The translations under genes and the position numbers were made by a program. A DNA stretch of 64,000 bases from Anaeramoeba flamelloides (Eukaryota > Metamonada > Anaeramoebidae), in the NCBI GenBank assembly GCA_027625915.1, contig JANTQA010000057.1:8494001-8558000 (forward strand). Direction: 5' to 3'. Positions 13,709-21,879 of the stretch are shown one piece after another; the stretch's first letter is position 1, and every line of letters starts with the position of its first letter. Below the pieces are notes generated by a model, which was given only the letters and a program-made list of their open reading frames with translations, was not told the origin of the DNA and searched no databases.

Positions 13709-15340
13709 TTTATTTTTATATTTATTTATTTATTTATTTATATATATATATAGAATCTGGAATAAAACAAAGTATTTCAATTAAAAGATAAAAGAAAAAA
13801 AATACTAAATTATTTTTAAATGTTAAATCAATTTTTTAAATATTCTAAACCAACTTATAAGTGAAATTTTCGTATTTCAATACCCTGAAAGACATTTTAT
13901 TTTATTCTTTTGATTTATTTTTTGATCTAAAATACCCCTTATACCTTTGAAATAATAAATAAAATTTCCATTTTCAAAATATTCTTGTATTTTTACAAAA
14001 ATTTTTAAATCTAAAAAGTTTTTCACTCTTTTTCTTAAATAATAAACTCCCTAAAGGACATGTAATTCTTATTATTGTTTTCCTGTTAGGCAATATCATC
14101 ATTATTTACACAAGAATTCAATTAAACCCAATAATAAAAACCATTTAGCAATTATAGAGTGATAAGTTATCATTTTTAAAATAGAGAATTTATTTACCCC
14201 AATGAATTTTTATAAAAAAATTTTTATCATTTTTGCTTGGAATTTTTTAATTGAAAAAATAAAAATAAATATATATAAAATATTTTTATTTTATACGATC
14301 ACACTTTTAATATTTTTAAGAGTTTAAAAGAGTAAATAACTTTCTAATTTTAATCTTATTTTAGAAACAAAAGTAAAATAAATCAAATATTGAAACCTCA
14401 ATAATCACAAAAAAAACATCATTTATTTCATTCAATAATTTAATAAACAAATTAATATTTGATAAATTAATTAATAGTTTTATTCCTAGTATAAAAAATG
14501 AATTTTTATTTTTTTAACTAATTTTTTGAGAAAATTTATTACTTTTTTATATTTTAATTAATAATTTTATTGATTTTTTTTTTTTAAAAAAAGTGTAAAA
14601 ACATTGAAGAATAAGAATAAAAATAAAATCTTTTAATACTTTTAATATTTCTATTATCATTATCTCCACAAAAATGATAAAGATTAGATAATTAATTATT
14701 ATATTAAAAATAATCAAATTTGAAATTATTTCTTGATATTATCAGTAGAATTTAAACCATCAGAAAAAAATTTAATTTAGATAATTGTTAATTTAATTAT
14801 TTCGTTATTTTTCTTATATTTTTTTAATTAATAAAAAAGAAAAAATTGTTTTGGATTAACATTTGAATTAACAAATTATATTTTTTCAAATTTATTCTCA
14901 TTATTGCAATTTATTTTGAAATTAAACCAATTTTTTAAACTGAGTTATATTAAAATATAATTTTTTATCTTTACAAACTTTATTTTTTAAACTTTTTTCA
15001 CAAACAAAAAGATTTCTTTATTCTCTTCAGAAAATAATATTTTTTGGAAATAATTTGGTAAGTATGTTAGAATTTAGATCTTGTTCAAAAATGTTAAAAA
15101 TGGATCAAAAGTTTAAAAACAATAATTCATTTCAAGAAATAACATTATAAGTGATTTGGTTTTATATAAATCATATTTTTAATTCGTTTTTCAATTTCAA
15201 GACACCCTAATTTTTTTACTGATTTTTACTATTAAATTTATTACAGATTGTTTTTTTGGTTAACGTACCACTGTAATACCATGAATTTTTTATGATCTAA
15301 TATCGTAGGGTGATTGGTTCAGAATGGTATGTCTCAAGCT
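13709..15340. other. AT-rich intergenic stretch, nothing recognised
   Basis: Extremely AT-rich sequence with ATTT and AT short repeats near 13710-13750. I see no reading frame, RNA gene or delimitable repeat. Confidence 0.5.
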
Positions 15341-15460: not shown

Positions 15461-18400
15461 ATGAACAAGGTCGACAAAACAAGAAAAATACTTCTTTTAA
15501 CCTCAACAGAACAAACCTCAAACCGTCTTACAAAAATTTTAGGGGATGATCTCGAACAACCAATAATCAAACAAATGCAAGGTCTGAGGATTTACAACTT
15601 TAAAAAAGTATATAAAAGAGAAAAGCGTCAAATGATGTGTACAACCATTTGTGGCCCCTTAAAGATCCCTGGCTTTGCTAACAACTACAACAAAAACAAC
15701 CGAAGGTGGGATCGCTATTTTAAAAAATACATTGAAAAAAGGGTAAGTCAAGAAAATTATTCGTTAAGTCAATATTTGATAGCAAACATTCACAACATCT
15801 CTTTCATTATATTTTGTTTTCATTATTGCCCATTAAATGAAGCCATTTGTCAGCAATTCGTAAATTTTGTTGATACCTTGCAAAACAAACAACAAAACTT
15901 AAAATATTTACGAATGAAATACCATGATCTGAATGCCAAACACATTATGGAGAATTTCAATAAACTGGAGAACTTTCAGATTAATCAAATTCATTACAAA
16001 ATTCATAATCTGAAAAGTGAATTCAATTTAAGGGTTTCGAAAGCCTTTACAGATTGGCAAACAAGATTCCTTCAAAAATATTTCCGTGATCTTCGTCAAT
16101 GTAAAAAAATCTTCTTTTCCCCAACCCTGTTGCCAATTTTAAAGCAAATTGTGACTTCTTATGCCAAACAACTAAATTTCATCCAAGAACCATATTATAC
16201 TTTGAATTTTGAACAAAATACTTTGGATGGACCAATCAAATTTAAATGGAAACGAAAAAGATTGCGTGACAGATATGTTATGGCGATCTTAATGGAGAAA
16301 TGTACTATCAAAGAAGCAGAGAATTTTCTCTTTAAAGCAAAAATGACAAAACAAACCACGAAGGATGTTATCCTCGAAAGGCCATTGCCTTTAAATTTGC
16401 CAACACTGCTCATCAAGGCTACAAAGTATCTTAAATTATCAGCCAAAAGAGTTTTGACAATTGCTGAGCATTTATACCAAGAAGGCTATATTTCATACCC
16501 GAGAACAAGAACCAATTGTTTCCCCAAGGATTTCGACTTCCTCAACCTAATTGCCCTGCAAGTTTCAAATCCAACTTATGGGCTATATGCAAATGACCTT
16601 TTACAAGAAAATTCAAAAATCATTCCGAGAAACGGGACAATTGTTGACCATTTTTTGCATCCCATATACCCCACACAAGAGGGATCGCACTTAAAAAAAG
16701 ACAATCGGCTGGTGTTTGATTTTATTGCAAAATATTTTTTGGCCGCTTGTTCAAATGATGCCCTAATGTCAAAAACAACTATTACAATGATGGTCAAAGG
16801 TAAGATTCAATAACACCCCCATTTTAAAACTATTAACAATGCTTATTTTTGAATAACCCTTACAACCCAGAAAAGACTCAAAATTTTTCAGAGAGATAAA
16901 TCTTACTACTTTGCAAGTAAACGTTTAAAAGAAATTTACCTTTGAGAGGTTTTGAAATTACTTATTTGGAAAAAAAGGTTCAGCACACTTTTTAATTGTA
17001 AACCTTAATAGAATCACAGAAACCTGAAAATGAAAATTAATTTCAATTAAAAGAAGAAATAAATTAAATTCAAAGGGGAATCCGTTATTTTGTTATCAAC
17101 CAAAAACAACAAAGCCATATGAGATCTTTCTTTTATATTGAGATCCAGAGATAAGTACTGATAAATTTCAAAATATGATTAAAAATTTTTCGTTGAATTT
17201 CCATTTTTTAAATTTTTTTTAACTCGTCTTTGAATAAAGAATGTTTTTACTTTAATTGTCAGGAAACCCTGAAAAGTTAAATGATCTTCAAAAGATTCTT
17301 TGTCAATAACTGTTTTGAATGTTGAGTTTTTACATTTATAAAATGGAATGTGAACGAGAAATATTTTTAACATTTTTTGGAATTTATCAGTACTTTTGGA
17401 GATATCAAAAATAGTCAAATTTTTTCAACAAATTTTTAAGAATACATCAACCAAAGAAAAAACCCAAAATAAAAGATATCTTTGTAAAAATTGTTGTTGG
17501 GCTTAATCCCCCATTTTGGATTTAATCATTTATTTTTTCTTTTATTGGTCGATCTTACTTTTCATTATCAGTTTATATTAATGTTTCAAATTACAAAGCG
17601 TGTTTAGTTCTTTTTTCCAAAACAGTTAATAATACTTTATCGGATTTCTTTCTTTTCTTTACTTTTTTTTTTGTTCATGTATTAACAGATTTTTGGCAAA
17701 AAATAATTTTTGAGAAAAATTCAAAAATTACATTTTTTTTGTTGTATTTATTTTGATCATTTTTGTACAAATAAATCGAAGGAAATTGAGAACTATTTTG
17801 AATTAATAATTAATATTTAAAAAAAAAAAAAAAAAAATTGGAAAGAGAATTCTTATCACAATTTATTTATTTTTTATTAAAAAAATTAAAAATTTAAGGG
17901 ACTGGTCTATATTCAATTTTTTTAGGTAAATTTAATAGAGATTTAGAATTTTTTTTGCCAATTACTTAGATTTGAAATCAAAGTGAAAAACTACTTAGTA
18001 TAGTAATGTAATCTCGATAAATGGCATTCATTAAATTTAGTTATTGTTTTTATAGAAATAAAAAATTTTTCCTTTTTTTCACTTTTTTGAAAGTTGCTTT
18101 TTTTCAACTTTTTGCAAAAATACAAAAAATAAAAAAAAATATGAGCAAGAACGCAAAACTTTGTTGTGTTTGTGTAAGACCAACAAAAAATAGTTTGAAA
18201 AATAAACCTGAAAAGGTTTTTTTGGATTTGCATGAAAAAATAGTTTGATTCGAAAAAAATATACAATTTATGCTTTACTCTTAATAAAAGATTTTCTTTC
18301 TTTTCTTGTGCCATTCTTTTTTTTTATGAATCTACTTTTTGAGTTTACATCCTTTTGTTTTTGTTGAATTTAAAGTTTTTTAAAGTATTACCAAATTATC

Positions 18401-21400
18401 ATTCCAAAAGTTTTTGTCAGAGTCAAAAAAAAATCAAAGAAAAGAATAAGAACTATTTTTTTAAAAAGTAATTATTGACAAAACAAATTGAGTACTTTAT
18501 AGAGTCAATTTGGATGAACAGAAGTGAATGAGAAAACATTCACCAGTTTTAAATTATTTTTTCGTTTTTCAAAATGAGAATAAATATTATTTTTGAGAAA
18601 ATAATTAAATCAAAAATTAATCAAAAAATTCTCATTCATTAAAGATATTTTTTTTAAAATAAATTTTTAAAAGTCACTTTTTTTGACTAGAATTGTAAAT
18701 TTTTAAAAAAACAAGAACTAAAAGTTCTAACATTGAAAAAACCGGTCTATTTTCAATTTTAAACCTATTTCAATATAAGGATTCCTTATTTAGTTATTGG
18801 TCAAAAAAAAAAAAAATAATAAATACTAGTCCCTTAAAATATAAATCTTAAAAAGGTATTTCTTTTTCACTTAATTATTAAAATATTCAAGTTTATCTTA
18901 CAACAAAAAAAAGAGTTTTTTTTTTTCTTTAAATTGAAGCATTGATTTTTCATATTTTTATCTTTGATAAAACTTTTGTTAACTTTGGATCTTTTTATAA
19001 TGGAAAAATACACAATTAGATTTTAAATTTGAAATTAAAAAATTATTTTTAAAAACATGTATCATATGATTTAACATTAATTATAAAAAAATAAAGTATC
19101 CTGAGAAAAAAAATCACCAAAGAACTTATGAAATAGAACATAAATAGTGAAAATGATATAACTGTCAAATCTAAAACCCAGAAATTTTCAAAAACCCGGT
19201 AATTCCATTTTTCTGATCAATTGAAAATATTAGTAAAGAGTTATAATCGTCATTATCATTTACTAATGACAAAATAAATAATGATTCTTTTTTTTGAATA
19301 ATACTAAATATATTATACTTTAGTTTTTTATTGTTTTTGTTTCTTTGGATCAAGTATTTAATCAATTTTTTTCGATTGTTTTCATATCGGATGAATGATC
19401 CCAAAAAAAGTATTGATATCTTCAATAATTTCGAAAATTAGAGTGATTTTTGCATAAGTTGCAAAGTTATGATTCTAATTTTTTTTTTTTTTTTTACCAA
19501 CATAAGAATATCTGTTTAGGTAATTTGTGAAATTTCCTTAATTTTAAAATGAAAGTTGATCCTTTCCATTTTAAATATTTTTTATACTTTGATTTTTTTT
19601 AAAAAAAAAATAAGAAGTAAACATAAAAATTAATGATTTTTCTGTTTATTTATTAAATTAAAAAAACTTATGTAGACCTTTCCGATAATTAAAAGAAGAG
19701 AGTAAAATCTTTGATTTCACTCAATTCTTTTTTATTTTCGAAATCAAAGATTTTTCTCCATCCTTTATAACCCTTGAAAAGTTTTTTTCATTTTTTTTTT
19801 AATTTTTGTTTTGATGGGAAAATTAATAGATTTTAGAAACAAAAATAAGTATTAAAAAAAAAAATCTACTGCACTTAACAGAACCTTGTGTTACTATACG
19901 ATGTAACTTTTTTTAATGTTATTATTATACCAAATAATTTTTTAAATAATCCTGAGCCTTTCAATCCATAACTATTAATTATTAAATTTTCTCTTAAATT
20001 GGTTTAGATTTTTATTTAAAGTTATCTATTTTCCGGTTGATATTTCCATTATCTTTTTTCTTGAAAATTTTAAATTTTTTGATATGTGTTTAAAGCCAGA
20101 AATTTCTAATTTTTTTTTTTTTTGAGTTTAAATCTTCTTTTATATATCGAAATTCTGACTTGATCAAGTTTTACTTCATTTTTATAAATTATTCAAGGAG
20201 TGTGGATTTATTTTTAAAATTTTATTACTTTTTTATTTATCCAAACATCAATTGAGTCGAAATCTTTTTGTTTTAGATTAAAAAGTTACTAATCCATACA
20301 ATAACTGGCTAATCCATATAGATTTAAACATTTGTTATTTTACTCCATTATCCAAATTTTATTAACTAAAAATCATCTTGATTTTTTTGAAATTAGCTTT
20401 TGACTTTTTTGAAAGTTTTTTTTTAAATGTTTTTCTTTTTCACCAAATTCCCAAATATTTTATTTTGGATAAATTATTTTTAATTTTAGTTTTTTGTTAG
20501 TGTTTGTATTCATTCCAATTTCTTGAATAAATTTATCTAATATTAATAATTTTTTATCAATAAAATTTATTATTCGTATTCATATTTTAACTACAATAGA
20601 AGAAGAATTTACATTTAGTAGTAAAAAAATAATTGCAAAAAATTTTTTCGAAATACACCCTTATAAAAAATGGAAAGATATACCATTACCAAACTTCATG
20701 TTAAATGTTGAAATTGTTTGTTACAAATTCACTTTAGATACGATACCACCCAAGAAACCAACTCTAATATCCGAAGCAAAATTAATTAAGGTGTTAGAAA
20801 ATCAAGGAATCGGAATTGATTGCAAAATAGTGGACCATTTATCAGATTTAGAACGAAATAATTACACCACTTTAAAAAATAATAAATATTTAGAACCGAC
20901 CGAACTAGGGAGGGCACTTATTGAAGGATATGATAGGATTGATCAACAATTATCATCCCCAAACCATTATTTAGAATTCGAATCGGCATTGTTCATATTA
21001 GCAAATGAAATCATACATAATAATCGGGTTATAAATAATAATGGGGTCTTACCCGAAATTTTGAATAACAATCTTCAAAAGTATAGTGATTTTTTAAAAA
21101 AAGTAACGCAAAGAAAACGAGGATTACTATATTCTTTTCAAAAAAATAAATTTACAATTGAAAAAAACCCAAATCGTAAACAATGCAAAGATTTATACAG
21201 ACCAATATTTTCATGTACTAGATGTGGTATAAAAAAAAAAATGTCAATAAAATTAACAAAAGATAATAGACTAATGTTTGGATGTGCAGGATGGAAGGAC
21301 TGCCATACTGCAATCTACTGCCATGACTGTATTACCAAAATTGATGTTATGAATGAAAAATGTTCTATTTGTAAAACAAAAGGTCTTGATGTAGTGCTTT

Positions 21401-21879
21401 GTAATTTTTTTTTTGAACCCGGTTATTTACCCGTATTTTTACAACCTTCCCCATACAAAGGTTGTCCGTGTTGTGATGGAAATCTAAACGAATTTTTAAA
21501 ACGGGATATATTAAAAAAGGAAGAGGAAAGTGAGGAAAGCGACGAAAGCGACGAAAGTGAGGAAAGTGAAGAGAGCGATGAAATAAATGATAATAATGCC
21601 TTAATTCCTCAAAAAAATTCCCAAAAACAAAGTCAAAGTCGTTCACAGAGGCTTACGAGAAACAGGAGAAGTGGACAAGGATCACATATTTTTCATCCAT
21701 TTTCTCATTCAGTTATTGACAATAGATTAAATGAAAATTCTAATCAAACAATAATAAATTTAAATAATAATAAACAAAACCTCACAAGCAGTAACCATGA
21801 TGAACAAAGAAAAAGAAGAGGGCAAGTTACTTTGAACACAAATTTACAAAAAAGAAAATACAATAATTCAAAAAAATAA
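15461..21879 (+). CDS. TOP3A: DNA topoisomerase III alpha homologue with altered TOPRIM site, two exons
   Basis: Type IA topoisomerase, in other eukaryotes the BLM/RMI partner that dissolves Holliday junctions. Exons 15461-16799 and 20600-21879, 872 residues. The join (phase 1, GTAAGA...TAG) aligns without gaps to the human protein across TTITMMVKEEEFTF to EIHPYKKW. The catalytic Tyr346 is present in EGYISYPRTRTN, with Arg for the usual Glu (SYPRTETN). In the TOPRIM domain the family D.D.E of TDCDREGE reads H121, C123, L125, and only the following E127 is kept. The first-strand VAEK reads TST. GIGTDAT reads GIGIDCK. The C-terminus has paired CxxC zinc ribbons from residue 652, PYKGCPCCDGNLNE, a Ser/Glu tract and a basic tail. 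Both exons are open throughout. The ATG at 15461 is preferred over a TTG 18 codons upstream. Either an inactive or divergent paralogue, or an unusual active enzyme. Confidence 0.9.
16960..17100 (-). repeat. fragment of inverted-repeat family related to 30355-30775 and 41530-41965
   Basis: Reads AGCACACTTTTTAATTGTAA, CCTTAATAGAATC, CCTGAAAATGAAAA and CAATTAAAAGAAGAAA, matching the reverse complement of the right end of 30355-30775. Only one end is visible. Confidence 0.45.
17898..18833. mobile_element. possible TTAA-flanked element, 936 bp
   Basis: GGGACTGGT follows TTAA at 17894-17897, and ACTAGTCCC precedes TTAA at 18834-18837. That is a 9-bp inverted end with one mismatch and a TTAA at each side, as in piggyBac-type insertions. 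The inverted ends are short and the flanking AT content is high, so chance is possible. A GGTCTAT-TTCAATTTT block near the left end recurs as a direct repeat at about 18741. No transposase frame is present. Confidence 0.35.

Follow-up and report, generated by a model that had tools for sequence, protein, structure and literature searches.

The window, a 64,000-nucleotide stretch of the Anaeramoeba flamelloides genome (assembly of 254 Mb in 76 contigs; window GC content 23.4%), carries a gene for a topoisomerase III (TOP3) homologue that has lost the catalytic metal site of its family. That the gene is a non-catalytic, TOP3-alpha-like paralogue is well supported. Its product is probably a non-cutting binding or regulatory protein, and the explanation that we prefer, held at somewhat less than even confidence, is an old TOP3-alpha-like pseudoenzyme that has been retained by selection and binds partners or junctions without cutting.

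The gene begins with an ATG at 15461, and its two exons join in phase to encode 872 residues without a stop codon, which bears out the coordinates and the two-exon frame of the initial annotation:

15461..16799, plus strand: exon 1, open frame with splice and frame checked; match to the type IA core family PF01131 at E 2.9e-36.
16800..20599, plus strand: intron of 3800 bp, GT-AG (GTAAG...ACAATAG), 20.7% GC, in phase by splice check.
20600..21879, plus strand: exon 2; match to PF01131 at E 2.7e-16.

Type IA core homology is present on both exons. Exon 1 encodes residues 1-446 and the first base of codon 447, and comprises the TOPRIM-like domain I, the first part of domain IV, domain III with the tyrosine, and parts of domain II. 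Exon 2 encodes the remainder of domains II and IV, the zinc-binding cysteines, and a tail that is first E/S-rich and then N/Q/K/R-rich. In the PDB, the protein matches human TOP3A best (4cgy, E 9e-71; its residues 44-746 align with 71-749), in keeping with the homology proposed at the outset.

Cleavage and religation by type IA topoisomerases are Mg-assisted and need the acidic site. To our knowledge, few enzymes are as conserved as these topoisomerases, whose acidic triad hardly ever varies. We aligned the window protein with two of the other TOP3 proteins of this genome (C1 and C41; a third is designated C70), human TOP3A and TOP3B, and 78 bacterial type IA loci. The following sites were identified from the alignment:

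15503..15505, plus strand: Ser15 at the position of the type IA first-strand Glu; VAEK reads LTST.
15821..15835, plus strand: H121-Y-C123-P-L125 in place of D-C-D-R-E, the TOPRIM metal site; no Pfam Toprim match.
16496..16510, plus strand: Tyr346-Pro-Arg348-Thr-Arg350; nucleophilic Tyr and Arg kept, Glu of RTETN replaced by Arg.
16655..16657, plus strand: conserved active-site His replaced by Leu399; FLHP in place of SHPP.

Around the triad the window protein reads FHYCPLNE, versus LDCDREGE in C1 and C70 and LDCDLEGE in C41. The first-strand Lys is lost along with the first-strand Glu, the S-G-Q of SYGSCQ has become F-S-L, and the R-D of RRELDLR has become K-N. SYPRTETN reads SYPRTRTN, with Tyr346, Arg348 and Thr349 retained. 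The functions that we assign to single residues of the window protein are presumed ones. The initial annotation had described the loss of the D.D.E triad, the altered VAEK and the intact tyrosine, and the alignment agrees on all three, for VAEK column by column. It understated the loss, which also takes in Leu399 and the changes in SYGSCQ and RRELDLR. The retained gate function proposed there is only partly right, as residues of the ssDNA groove are lost besides the triad. Since the changes are spread over many separate motifs of an open frame, they do not reflect a single sequencing error, and an assembly or reading error as the cause of the motif loss can be ruled out.

The bacterial sequences derive from 177 related loci, of which 80 were kept; we used the 78 that passed a filter requiring a D.D.EG motif in an open frame. 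By length and motifs, they look to be mostly topoisomerase I. Because this set was chosen by the motif, its 100% conservation there is partly by choice. The conservation of D.D.E in C1, C41, human TOP3A and TOP3B is independent of that filter. Since the Mg site is gone, as are both the Glu and the Lys of the first strand, the active-site His and residues of the ssDNA groove, type IA chemistry implies that the window protein very probably neither cleaves nor religates DNA.

A different catalytic activity, in which the Tyr and Arg of domain III would be paired with another acidic or metal site, could draw on the retained Tyr346, Arg348 and Thr349, and on Glu17 and Glu127, two acids that lie close in sequence to the lost positions. 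We consider it very improbable, as D.D.E and the first-strand Glu have been lost, together with the Glu that follows RT, the His, and the S-G-Q of the ssDNA groove, and a replacement acidic triad is not evident in the protein sequence. Moreover, the Tyr sits within the best preserved domain (see below), so its retention is not specific. Pfam Toprim finds no match on exon 1 even at E<=10, whereas it matches the other three TOP3 genes; a genome search with the same family scored eight places, none of them in the window gene. A splice form that restores a canonical TOPRIM motif, considered in the initial annotation, did not turn up either: tblastn of the C1 TOPRIM over positions 5000-32000 of the window returned a single match, at E 9.5.

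The loss is unevenly distributed along the protein. We defined as near-universal the 53 positions that are common to all eukaryotic sequences present and to 90% or more of the bacterial set. The window protein retains 28 of them, 6 of the 23 in residues 1-245 and 22 of the 30 in residues 246-746 (Fisher p=0.0009, with the split point chosen after the data were seen). For positions 1-42 the comparison consists of C1, C41 and the bacteria only, since the human chains used start later. Invariant eukaryotic positions are kept at 12 of 42 in domain I, 10 of 21 in the first part of domain IV, 36 of 58 in domains II and III, and 18 of 31 in the second part of domain IV; the domain borders, which we take over from E. 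coli topoisomerase I, are approximate. Identity to human TOP3A in domain I (residues 43-190) is 18% for the window protein versus 44% for C1, and the corresponding values are 24% versus 39% in domain II, 40% versus 52% in domain III, which is the best preserved, and 26% for both in the zinc region. The last of these contains one further feature, placed by alignment and Cys positions:

21214..21303, plus strand: zinc-ribbon-like stretch with four Cys kept (residues 652, 655, 675 and 681).

Although these cysteines are kept, Zn_ribbon_Top1 (PF01396) leaves the window protein unmatched at E<=10, and it matches the three other TOP3 genes. The domain-wise conservation thus indicates that the cleavage and ssDNA-groove residues have gone, and that the Tyr domain and the zinc Cys have stayed.

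A structure of exon 1 alone was predicted with AlphaFold2, using an alignment of 50 of the 78 bacterial relatives, a type IA alignment that biases the model to the type IA fold (mean pLDDT 68, pTM 0.65). A TOPRIM-like alternation of strands and helices is predicted from this alignment in residues 11-30 and 101-170 (block pLDDT 78-91), on an exon that Pfam Toprim leaves unmatched, and residues 50-80 fall below pLDDT 50. The top Foldseek match of the model is chain A of 4cgy, which is human TOP3A in complex with RMI1 (E 1.5e-19, TMq 0.63, rmsd 8.4).

A search of the genome for PF01131 identifies four genes, i.e. C1, C70, C41 and the window gene, and a search with the window protein yields no TOP3 copies beyond these four. 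Since the genome searches score the best candidates only, all copy numbers given here are lower bounds. The three other genes keep D.D.E intact, and their reading frame is uninterrupted, in contrast to the 3800-bp intron of the window gene. Over 705 core residues, C1 and C70 are identical at 692, C41 and C1 at 522, and the window protein and C1 at 211. The initial annotation had offered two readings, a structural, non-catalytic TOP3 or a diverged paralogue beside a normal TOP3, the latter calling for another TOP3 with an intact triad. Three such genes exist, which makes the window gene a non-catalytic paralogue beside normal enzymes; with the constraint described below, both readings hold together. 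The C41 gene (L003, contig 41) has the motif DCDLEGE, in which a Leu takes the place of the Arg of human TOP3A and the Lys of TOP3B, and it also contains a long low-complexity insertion; from its sequence, C41 may be altered too.

In a tree built from 390 columns with 14 of the 78 bacterial sequences, the window gene falls in one cluster with C1, C70 and C41; the split of these four from human TOP3A, TOP3B and bacteria has an ultrafast bootstrap of 93%. Placement with human TOP3A alone (AU 0.020, KH 0.055, SH 0.135) or with the bacterial enzymes (AU 0.017, KH 0.074, SH 0.080) is disfavoured by the AU test and not rejected by KH or SH, and neither placement outside the TOP3A-like group (AU 0.21) nor placement with TOP3B (AU 0.19) is rejected. 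The core of C1 is 49% identical to TOP3A and 36% to TOP3B. We base the TOP3A assignment on the zinc region, the paralogues and the tree, an assignment that leaves room for deeper positions in the tree. A search for viral relatives of the TOP3 alignment gave 54 pattern matches and none that was confirmed, and the Spo11/TP6A family produced no match.

According to the available text of a published account (PMC11550330), the A. flamelloides genome is AT-rich, with a massive expansion of ribosomal genes (>1100) and expanded families of DNA and RNA metabolism. For the ribosomal protein uS10, at least 14 places in the genome are matched from its start, two of them with an internal stop codon; positions 2403-2807 of the window are one of these places.

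To examine selection, we used a codon model of four sequences and 705 gap-free codons. On the window branch, omega is estimated at 0.04, but synonymous sites are saturated (the optimiser is at its bound), so this value is unreliable and should not be read as measured; what holds is the rejection of neutrality alone. Omega=1 is rejected on this branch with a 2dlnL of 83.0 for the whole gene, 48.1 for exon 1, 35.5 for exon 2 and 10.7 for residues 1-190. The neutral dN/dS that the initial annotation had weighed was therefore not obtained. An omega of 0.2 has a 2dlnL of 5.9 against it. For the whole gene, one omega for all branches versus two gives a 2dlnL of 1.1, which is not significant, so the window branch is constrained like the others as far as the data tell. 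The constraint covers the whole branch, including the time before the site was lost, and part of it could predate the loss.

These results bear on whether the gene is a recently dead pseudogene, long constrained and now drifting with its frame still unbroken. Consistent with such a history are the high divergence from C1, the abundance of gene copies in this genome, including the two uS10 places with internal stops, and the long intron, which harbours a high-copy element defined by its repeat copies and ends:

17893-18838, no strand assigned: 946-bp dispersed element of high copy number, within the intron, with terminal inverted repeats TTTAAGGGACTRGT.

With the whole intron as query, 40 of 9888 first-look candidates were scored, and among these the element has 39 further copies at 90-94% identity; possibly there are thousands. 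On the other hand, about two new stop codons are expected per 1% of neutral divergence and none occurs in 872 codons, while the number of active-site changes needs far more than 1% divergence. Constraint is found in both exons, and the splice sites are canonical and in phase. We therefore judge a recent pseudogene to be improbable, and the gene likely still encodes a working protein. Judged by its sequence, the gene combines an open frame under selection with the loss of its catalytic residues, the combination expected of a pseudoenzyme.

A more diverged dispersed repeat occupies positions 14074-15238 of the window, ending about 220 bp upstream of the ATG, with 68-73% identity to its scored copies and 2923 first-look candidates. 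A blastn match that had suggested an upstream flank shared with the C41 gene is this dispersed repeat, so we do not claim synteny with C41.

How a TOP3 pseudoenzyme might act is a more tentative matter. A possible mechanism, which we rate as less likely than not, is that it would contact RMI-like partners and/or recombination junctions through domains II and III and the zinc ribbon, that this contact would be made without cutting DNA, and that its occupancy would limit or position the active TOP3-RMI-BLM machinery. There are two RMI1-type OB genes in the genome (L015, 1165-1947, and L016, 1171-1869), both diverged. In the L015 protein, the loop between the two matched stretches lacks about 23 residues relative to human RMI1; this protein also matches TDRD3, the partner of TOP3B. 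In the human complex, as given in the available text of PMC4109787, the RMI1 OB fold docks on domain II of TOP3A, and its insertion loop reaches domain III and lines the TOP3 gate. In the window protein, domain II is only 24% identical to the human one (39% for C1), which counts against a specific RMI role, as the RMI1 dock is not specially preserved.

This weak conservation of domain II would equally fit a neofunctionalised scaffold acting outside recombination, e.g. a protein that binds RNA or chromatin by means of the TOP3 shell and its charged tail. The ssDNA-groove residues are lost, and the tail is E/S-rich and then basic, unlike the N-rich tails of the three other TOP3 proteins. Nevertheless, the overall core and the zinc Cys are retained, and no positive pointer to RNA or chromatin emerged from the analysis. 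We regard such a scaffold as somewhat unlikely, and keep a pseudoenzyme that binds partners or junctions as the preferred explanation.

A possible parallel comes from the type II enzymes. Of six TOP2-like places identified in the genome with PF00521, five have Toprim matches, EGDS and DQDLDG. The sixth, on contig 37 (C37), has a weak PF00521 match (E 1.2e-12) with three stop codons within the matched stretch. The locus consists of L107 1508-8919 and L109 5856-6170, at about 4982555-4995418 of the contig. No Pfam family matches either of its two long frames at E<=1, and a 50-base GT-AG stretch would join these frames into 2453 residues. Identities to an active TOP2 are 102 of 251 (41%) in the transducer, 77 of 276 in core parts and 52 of 212 (25%) in the coiled region. 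A long low-complexity stretch stands in place of TOPRIM; tblastn of the TOPRIM region of active TOP2 at the locus or upstream gave a best E of 1.7, and by eye the position of the catalytic Tyr falls in an alignment gap. An ATPase-like stretch, 40% identical, lies about 5.4 kb upstream of the frames and would appear to be part of the same gene; by eye, its usual Glu is Leu and the G-rich lid before KLCN is missing. Omega=1 is rejected for the C37 transducer (2dlnL 94.7), but, being pairwise and saturated, the test does not show that it is the C37 copy that is constrained.

Dead paralogues of topoisomerases may thus be a recurrent feature of this genome. A broader idea, which we think unlikely, is that non-cutting topoisomerases have evolved here as regulators, with a dead TOP3-alpha masking junctions or RMI-type partners and a dead TOP2 in parallel. 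If true, it would mean that binding by itself can be the selected role of a topoisomerase shell, a natural counterpart to the interfering, TOPRIM-less Arabidopsis TOP3-alpha discussed below. The dead TOP3 paralogue, if kept, would set what TOP3 does by binding apart from strand passage, and would serve as a natural tool for asking what TOP3-RMI does at junctions without cutting. The duplicate-rich genome lowers the surprise; it is raised by the fact that a gene under constraint has had a near-invariant site erased, and by the TOP2 parallel. A search of open-licence literature for catalytically dead type IA or TOP3 paralogues gave no such report among the titles and abstract openings listed, which is weak evidence of absence.

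Among known systems, human TOP3A (4cgy, with RMI1) is the closest match in both sequence and fold, and shares with the window protein the domain order, the SYPRT Tyr and Arg, and the four Cys of the first zinc ribbon. The window protein differs from it in having no D.D.E, first-strand Glu, RTE Glu or active-site His, and in its changed ssDNA-groove residues. Human TOP3B (5gvc, partner TDRD3) has the same type IA fold and is the next PDB match (E 3.8e-50). Core identity is about equal, 29% to TOP3B versus 30% to TOP3A, and TOP3B scores lower (174 versus 242 bits), in part since the zinc region is absent from most of the TOP3B chains in the PDB search.

The closest precedent in the available literature is engineered Arabidopsis TOP3-alpha, either TOPRIM-less or Tyr342Phe (PMC6160208). 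As far as the available text of that study goes, TOP3-alpha without TOPRIM or with Tyr changed to Phe is embryo-lethal in top3-alpha mutants and harmless in the wild type. When zinc fingers and TOPRIM are both deleted, embryo lethality is relieved, and seedlings show enhanced defects and die later. Its authors suggest a masking of repair intermediates; DNA binding by the zinc fingers could not be demonstrated there, as the proteins aggregated. Compared with these constructs, the window protein appears from its sequence to be likewise a TOP3 without catalysis that keeps zinc Cys and coexists with normal-type enzymes. It has one recognisable zinc ribbon motif, unlike Arabidopsis TOP3-alpha. Whereas the constructs described in that text are man-made, the window protein is the product of a natural gene, in which a TOPRIM-like domain is present with its site erased and the Tyr is kept.
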